Source: Thermoprotei archaeon (lineage in GTDB: Archaea; Thermoproteota; Thermoprotei; QMSL01). Taken from it: 42,435 bases of DNA. Below are positions 9,886-10,361 of this stretch, in pieces (position 1 is the first letter of the stretch; the number at the start of each line of letters is the position of its first letter). The DNA lies in assembly GCA_003650925.1 (NCBI GenBank), contig QMSP01000016.1:1-42435 (forward strand). The letters run 5' to 3'. Made by a program: the position numbers and the translations under genes. The notes beneath the pieces were generated by a model. That model was not told the DNA's origin, searched no databases, and was given only the letters and a program-made list of their open reading frames with translations.

Positions 9886-9897
9886 AAATTATTTAAG
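9886..9897 (+). promoter_or_regulatory. TATA box of the C/D-H/ACA RNA cluster
   Basis: aaattatttaag lies ten bases after the preceding stop codon. Transcription would start near 9916, immediately before the first box of the C/D RNA. Confidence 0.55.
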
Positions 9898-9919
9898 CCT
9901 GAAGAGTTATAGAGAGCAT

Positions 9920-9977
9920 GGCGATGAGGAGCTCAGGCGACGCTGAGTGATGAAGATATGGCAGGTAGGCTGATGCC
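9920..9977 (+). ncRNA. Box C/D sRNA candidate, directly joined to an H/ACA RNA
   Basis: C-like gcgatga (9921-9927), 15-nt guide ggagctcaggcgacg, D' ctga (9943-9946), C' tgatga (9948-9953), 16-nt guide agatatggcaggtagg, D ctga (9970-9973). ggc (9920-9922) and gcc (9975-9977) can close a terminal stem. The D'-C' spacer is only one nucleotide, shorter than usual, and the C box has one mismatch. A well-spaced TATA box supports transcription from this point. Confidence 0.6.
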
Positions 9978-10052
9978 CGCCCCGTATCTCACAGCCTGCT
10001 GAGGAAGCTATAGCTGATGACTATGATGCAGGTTGCGGTTAACGGGGCGACA
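9978..10052 (+). ncRNA. H/ACA box sRNA
   Basis: A single hairpin fitting the archaeal pseudouridylation-guide design. Lower stem CGCCCCG (9978-9984) pairs perfectly with CGGGGCG (10043-10049), and ACA follows at once (10050-10052). Upper stem CAGCCUGC (9992-9999) pairs with GCAGGUUG (10028-10035, one G-U). Between them is an internal loop with guide arms tatctca (9985-9991) and cggttaa (10036-10042). The upper-stem base is 14 nt from ACA, the expected distance. The apical part contains UGAGGA and UGAUGA, where an L7Ae-type kink-turn or k-loop would sit. Gar1, an H/ACA protein, is encoded at 40701. Target not identified. Confidence 0.75.
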
Positions 10053-10361
10053 GGGTTCATCAAGGTCAGCTCCTCACAAACCCCACCTTCGGTCATCAAC
10101 TCCACAAAGGGAGAGTATGGTCATCGGAGCTTCATCCTCATGCCTGAATACTCTGAAAGTGCTTGATAAAACTAACTACATGTTTAGGTCTGTGTGAAGA
10201 TGAAGCCTTAGGTAGTGGAAGGTCAGTAAAGCATTGGATAGAGACCACTTCATGACCCTCTGGGGCAGATCTACCATCCCTAGTGATGAGCTCACGTTAT
10301 TACAACATCCTTTCCTAAGCTTCTTTATGATTGTGTCCCAATGACTTCTCCAGTACTGATG
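10053..10361. other. Noncoding stretch without a clear feature
   Basis: No convincing open frame is seen between the H/ACA RNA and the larC stop. It contains several isolated TGATGA- or CTGA-like words on both strands, and a possible 60-base hairpin closed by ggtct (10187-10191) and agacc (10242-10246) downstream of a TATA-like gataaaac. None forms a complete guide RNA layout. It may hold a degenerate or unfamiliar small RNA. Confidence 0.4.

Follow-up and report, generated by a model that had tools for sequence, protein, structure and literature searches.

A conserved tandem of a box C/D and an H/ACA guide RNA behind one TATA-like element in a Thermoprotei archaeon

In archaea, the C/D and H/ACA guide RNAs are commonly regarded as two distinct sets of genes. 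A preliminary description of positions 9886–10052 of the stretch of Thermoprotei DNA analysed here (contig QMSP01000016.1, 42,435 nt, hereafter the window) had placed an RNA of the C/D type directly in front of an H/ACA hairpin, with a single TATA box before both. This locus raises the question of whether such a mixed unit is real and, if so, whether it would give two guide RNAs or one.

The C/D sRNA (9919–9977) was recognized from its box order, its homologues and sub-threshold Rfam matches; this and all other features of the window are on the plus strand unless stated otherwise. It consists of the C box CGAUGA (9922–9927), the D′ guide GGAGCUCAGGCGACG (9928–9942), the D′ box CUGA (9943–9946), the C′ box GUGAUGA (9947–9953), the D guide AGAUAUGGCAGGUAGG (9954–9969) and the D box CUGA (9970–9973), i.e. 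the four boxes are in the archaeal C/D order with the guides between them. No Rfam family reached its gathering score anywhere in the window; the best sub-threshold matches were archaeal C/D sRNAs (sR1, E = 0.00037) and covered the C/D half only. A TATA-like promoter element, TTATTTAAG (9889–9897), is located ∼25 nt upstream of the C/D sRNA, which itself contains no TATA-like site. The window's own genome (G000) also has another C/D sRNA, GAGUUCAGCCUUGGCUGA (L111, G000:C39:14938-15002, minus strand), with the D guide GGAUCAACCGG, which is like the Rfam sR60 consensus.

That the two parts abut was borne out, and the four nucleotides UGCC (9974–9977) link the D box to the H/ACA stem. The H/ACA sRNA (9978–10052), identified by folding and covariation, is a single hairpin terminated by ACA. 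Its lower stem pairs 9978–9985 with 10042–10049 (8 bp, CGCCCCGU/ACGGGGCG). The upper stem, 7–8 bp in length, pairs 9992–9999 with 10028–10035 and belongs to a region with a K-turn-like apical part (9992–10035), where a conserved AUGA is found at 10023–10026. The pocket is formed by the left arm AUCUCAC (9986–9992), whose final C (9992) also opens the upper stem, and the right arm CGGUUA (10036–10041). The ACA box (10050–10052) abuts the lower stem and is 14 nt from the upper stem, so that the pocket and the exact 14-nt spacing of the preliminary description both hold. The stems had been given there as complementary helices of 7 and 8 bp; the complementarity stands, and the lower stem has 8 bp rather than 7. 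The hairpin has a minimum energy of −33.2 kcal/mol (z = −3.35) and beats 199 of 200 shuffled sequences.

On the minus strand, boxes resembling those of a C/D sRNA (GTTGATGA, GCTGA and TTGATGA, within 10046–10110) overlap the 3′ end of the H/ACA sRNA without a valid D box, and are probably due to chance. A minus-strand match at 9978–10104 (17 bits) was rejected as a near-palindromic image of the H/ACA stem, in which no valid D box was seen.

Relatives were compared first by DNA search among four genomes of the order, namely G000 and three others (G001, G002 and G003). The whole unit was present in G001, a member of a different family, with 71% identity over the matched stretch, and the search also indicated a further copy in G000, on C43. 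The G001 tandem adjoins a Gfo/Idh-like oxidoreductase gene and the window tandem a DapA-like gene; when the DapA-like neighbour was searched against contigs, the sole match was distant and bacterial. No tandem was found in G002 or G003, and the C/D sRNA of G003 was rejected as a candidate because the hairpin behind it is weak and lacks ACA.

A covariance model built from G000 and G001 only recovered tandems that it had not seen: a second copy in G000 (G000:C43:12204-12335, L069; also L005, minus strand, 1540-1407) and full-length copies in f4, the latter with E-values of 1.8e-7 to 9e-5 per genome. The C43 copy has the same D′ guide as the window copy; its D guide (GCGGUAACAU) and H/ACA arms differ. 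With a wider second model, the tandem was found in 7 of 17 f4 genomes (72–116 bits), and matches of 55–65 bits were obtained in G030 and G044 of f8, two genomes left out of that model; the two G044 matches appear to be one locus, represented twice by overlapping contig ends. Families f4 and f8 belong to one second order. The halves thus occur in the same order twice in G000, in G001, in f4 and in f8, and the distance from the D box to the H/ACA stem is 1–4 nt in all 12 tandem loci. Elsewhere, no match of tandem strength was seen in 250 genomes sampled across the phylum under strict filters. Model matches in f40 (27–30 bits) were rejected as tandems: downstream, the sequence resembles the conserved terminal part of an adjacent coding gene, and the stems are probably fortuitous.

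The 12 aligned tandem loci were used to examine base pairing in the two H/ACA stems, 15 pairs in all. Pairing was found in 97.2% of cells, compared with 74.7% for shuffled and 37–48% for slid alignments, where the alignments had been fitted to the model and so favour the structure. Two-sided changes occurred in 12 of the 15 pairs, and the pairing result was similar with 6 and with 11 sequences. RNAalifold recovered both stems; of its 21 pairs, 15 were compensated. The sliding control, together with the finding of the f4 and f8 copies before their inclusion, argues that the signal is not a product of the model-fitted alignment. ACA is present in 11 of the 12 aligned copies (AUA in L098), and in the apical part the 3′ strand carries a conserved (A/G)UGA. 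Judged by these comparisons of sequence, the H/ACA structure is under selection; conservation of the stems in relatives, one of the points on which the preliminary description had staked its claim, was found with strong covariation. A tandem conserved with compensatory changes in 12 loci is beyond chance, and we therefore regard the C/D (9919–9977) and H/ACA (9978–10052) tandem behind one TATA-like element as confirmed.

These data also bear on whether the hairpin is a guide at all. If only the C/D sRNA were functional, the hairpin could be a transcription terminator or an mRNA structure; its GC-rich sequence and its position directly 3′ of the C/D sRNA speak for this. However, no T-run lies behind the hairpin, ACA is found right behind the lower stem in nearly all copies, the two stems covary with the pocket kept, and the pocket arms fit an rRNA site and change along with it (see below). 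This explanation is hardly credible.

In 9 of the 12 tandem loci, the C/D part is preceded at 26–36 nt by a TATA-like octamer that outscores ∼91–99% of its surroundings; in 11 of the 12, no comparable site exists inside the C/D part. This fits one putative promoter for both RNAs, in keeping with the single TATA box of the preliminary description. The possibility that two independently transcribed sRNA genes abut by chance draws on the occurrence of each half alone. Free-standing H/ACA sRNAs, without an Rfam match, were found at L102:1499-1571 (f7) and L117:1501-1575 (f47) in two distant families of the phylum, both with the arms UCUCAC and CGGUCA; solo C/D sRNAs were found at L056, L058 and L060, and solo C/D relatives that share guide sequences occur in f9, f10, f12, f14 and G003. 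Against two genes stand the position of the TATA-like elements, upstream and not internal, and the same order and near-zero spacing repeated in 12 loci of two orders. We consider an accidental juxtaposition very unlikely.

To predict targets, 23S rRNA sequences were needed, and with the archaeal LSU model no 23S match was obtained in G000, G001, G002 or G003. Two of these genomes are at least 94% complete despite this absence, and only G001 yielded a (partial) 16S. The missing 23S is probably a binning loss, or possibly reflects intron-rich rRNA. As a consequence, the guides of the window were ranked against the LSUs of sister families rather than of its own order, and its targets are inferred from these. 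Positions follow Escherichia coli numbering, which we derived ourselves by counting backwards with the sarcin-ricin loop and the peptidyl-transferase centre as reference points. In these sister LSUs, the search for rRNA targets proposed in the preliminary description led to 23S U2593 for the H/ACA arms, ∼2615 for the D guide and ∼2634 for the D′ guide.

For the G000 pocket, the best site was GACCG-[U C]-GUGAGA in helix 93, with the right arm pairing to GACCG 5′ of the target U and the left arm to GUGAGA 3′ of it. This site ranked first in L035 and L045, the closest-fitting LSUs for this guide, and with shuffled arms it ranked first or second in 6 of 400 trials. In the G001 guide several arm positions have changed, and its left arm mismatches the common GUGAGA at one position; the U2593 site still ranked 1–2. 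In f8, the left arm of G030 (UCUCGC) matches GCGAGA in its own LSU, again at rank 1 and by a wide margin (29.5 versus 20.5); guide and rRNA have changed together here, the latter from GUGAGA to GCGAGA. Of the two solo H/ACA sRNAs, that of L102 had the site at rank 1 (31 versus 22), and that of L117, with the same arm motifs, had it at rank 3–5 among the registers scored in LSUs of other families. The f4 arms fit 16S GCCGGC-[U C]-GUGC (∼U1070) better than 23S U2593. Another candidate was U2586, which by our own numbering conversion is the target of P. abyssi Pab91; it was rejected because CGGU is on the wrong arm for that site. The H/ACA sRNA of the window is therefore predicted to direct pseudouridine formation at 23S U2593.

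The D guide has an AGGUAG core, for which the CUACCU site at ∼2615 was ranked first in five of six genomes and second in the sixth, each searched against its own rRNA; the corresponding predicted target of the window D guide is CUACCUGCC. The D′ guide sequence CUCAGGCGAC matches 23S GUCGCCUGAG at ∼2634, a site that is exact only in the f5 LSU (L035). Solo C/D relatives with CUCAGGCGGC match LSUs reading GCCGCCUGAG. Alternatively, the D′ guide can pair over 11 bp within the L045 rRNA locus, apparently with 16S, and the f4 D′ guide fits AAGGGGAACG (∼2566) instead, at rank 1–3 in five of five cases. The predicted activity of the window C/D sRNA is thus 2′-O-methylation of 23S at ∼2615 and ∼2634.

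The predicted 23S sites fall within one stretch of ∼80 nt just 5′ of the sarcin-ricin loop, so that the three guides of the window would all act on a single 23S stretch beside the peptidyl-transferase centre. C/D hot spots are known in helices 90–93 (PMC4644070). The f4 H/ACA arms favour 16S, so that not every tandem has all its guides converging on a single 23S stretch. If the predictions are true, 23S rRNA from the window's own order should contain GACCGUCGUGAGA, CUACCUGCC and GUCGCCUGAG.

How, then, might the tandem be used? We favour, with a probability of about 0.72, one gene with its own promoter, in which a putative C/D 2′-O-methylation guide is followed, head to tail, by a putative H/ACA pseudouridylation guide of one hairpin, and whose transcript would be split into two RNAs by trimming. 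L7Ae would recognize the putative K-turns in each half; the C/D half would recruit Nop5 and fibrillarin, the H/ACA half Cbf5, Nop10 and Gar1. Nucleases could then trim the unprotected RNA at the 1–4 nt junction to release two separate guides. Maturation of archaeal C/D sRNAs has been described to proceed by RNP protection and trimming of their exposed ends (PMC7994747).

With no spacer, junction trimming, the internal processing called for in the preliminary description, is one of two possibilities; the other is composite retention. An uncut, stable composite guide of ∼134 nt could hold C/D and H/ACA particles together on neighbouring rRNA sites, by analogy with the eukaryotic scaRNA U85. The 1–4 nt spacer in all 12 loci has no room for a processing signal, the unit has been kept in two orders and duplicated whole in G000, and its predicted 23S targets adjoin each other. 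However, coupled modification is made less plausible by f4, whose H/ACA half seems to be directed at 16S, and trimming to the RNP footprint is the general rule for archaeal C/D sRNAs (PMC7994747). We therefore think a composite unlikely, though with more in its favour than the two explanations discarded above. Similarly tentative is the proposal that such an RNA might be an archaeal counterpart of the scaRNAs, with coupled modification, and perhaps chaperoning, of 23S from helix 93 to the sarcin-ricin loop.

The domains of U85 have a nested layout. Eukaryotic composite scaRNAs of the U85 type, the functional analogue, are like the window tandem in that both guide classes are in one RNA (PMC4041459), and neighbouring nucleotides are also the predicted targets of the tandem. 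The tandem differs in that it has no nuclear targeting, its predicted target is rRNA and not snRNA, and its domains follow one another. Free-standing archaeal H/ACA sRNAs share the single hairpin, pocket, K-turn-like part and ACA, but have no fused C/D sRNA. Archaeal C/D clusters and tRNA–C/D fusions (N. equitans, I. hospitalis, T. tenax) are likewise multi-RNA transcripts with little or no spacing; in the accounts of them used here, C/D is paired with C/D or tRNA and never with H/ACA (PMC3491384, PMC7994747).

The closest precedent is in Pyrococcus abyssi, where the H/ACA RNA Pab21 is at the 5′ end of a transcript annotated as the C/D RNA snoR9 (PMC4652768). As here, one archaeal transcript has H/ACA and C/D guides, but there the H/ACA part comes first, here the C/D part does, and the phylum is another. 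No Rfam match to snoR9 (RF00065) was seen in the window or the homologous loci tested. Mixed transcripts had been called uncommon in archaea, a fair statement, although they are not unprecedented given Pab21/snoR9. In the H/ACA literature, of which our coverage was partial, we found no second archaeal report of a mixed gene, and no such unit is mentioned in the review passages on archaeal C/D and H/ACA genes drawn on here. The window tandem is a conserved, C/D-first form of a mixed transcript and, as Pab21/snoR9 has the opposite order and was already reported, is new only as a variant.

On the most parsimonious reading, the tandem was probably born by the joining of H/ACA and C/D guides that are separate elsewhere in Thermoproteota. 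Since then the fused pair would have stayed together in one transcription unit, with single guides drifting or acquiring new targets, as in f4 and C43. The series of solo C/D, solo H/ACA, fused, and fused and retargeted forms may show how guide genes combine. The tandem would be a natural substrate for studying the separation of guide RNAs where no space is left for a processing signal. A conserved, duplicated unit apparently aimed mainly at one rRNA neighbourhood would also make spatial or temporal coupling of the two modification machineries testable.
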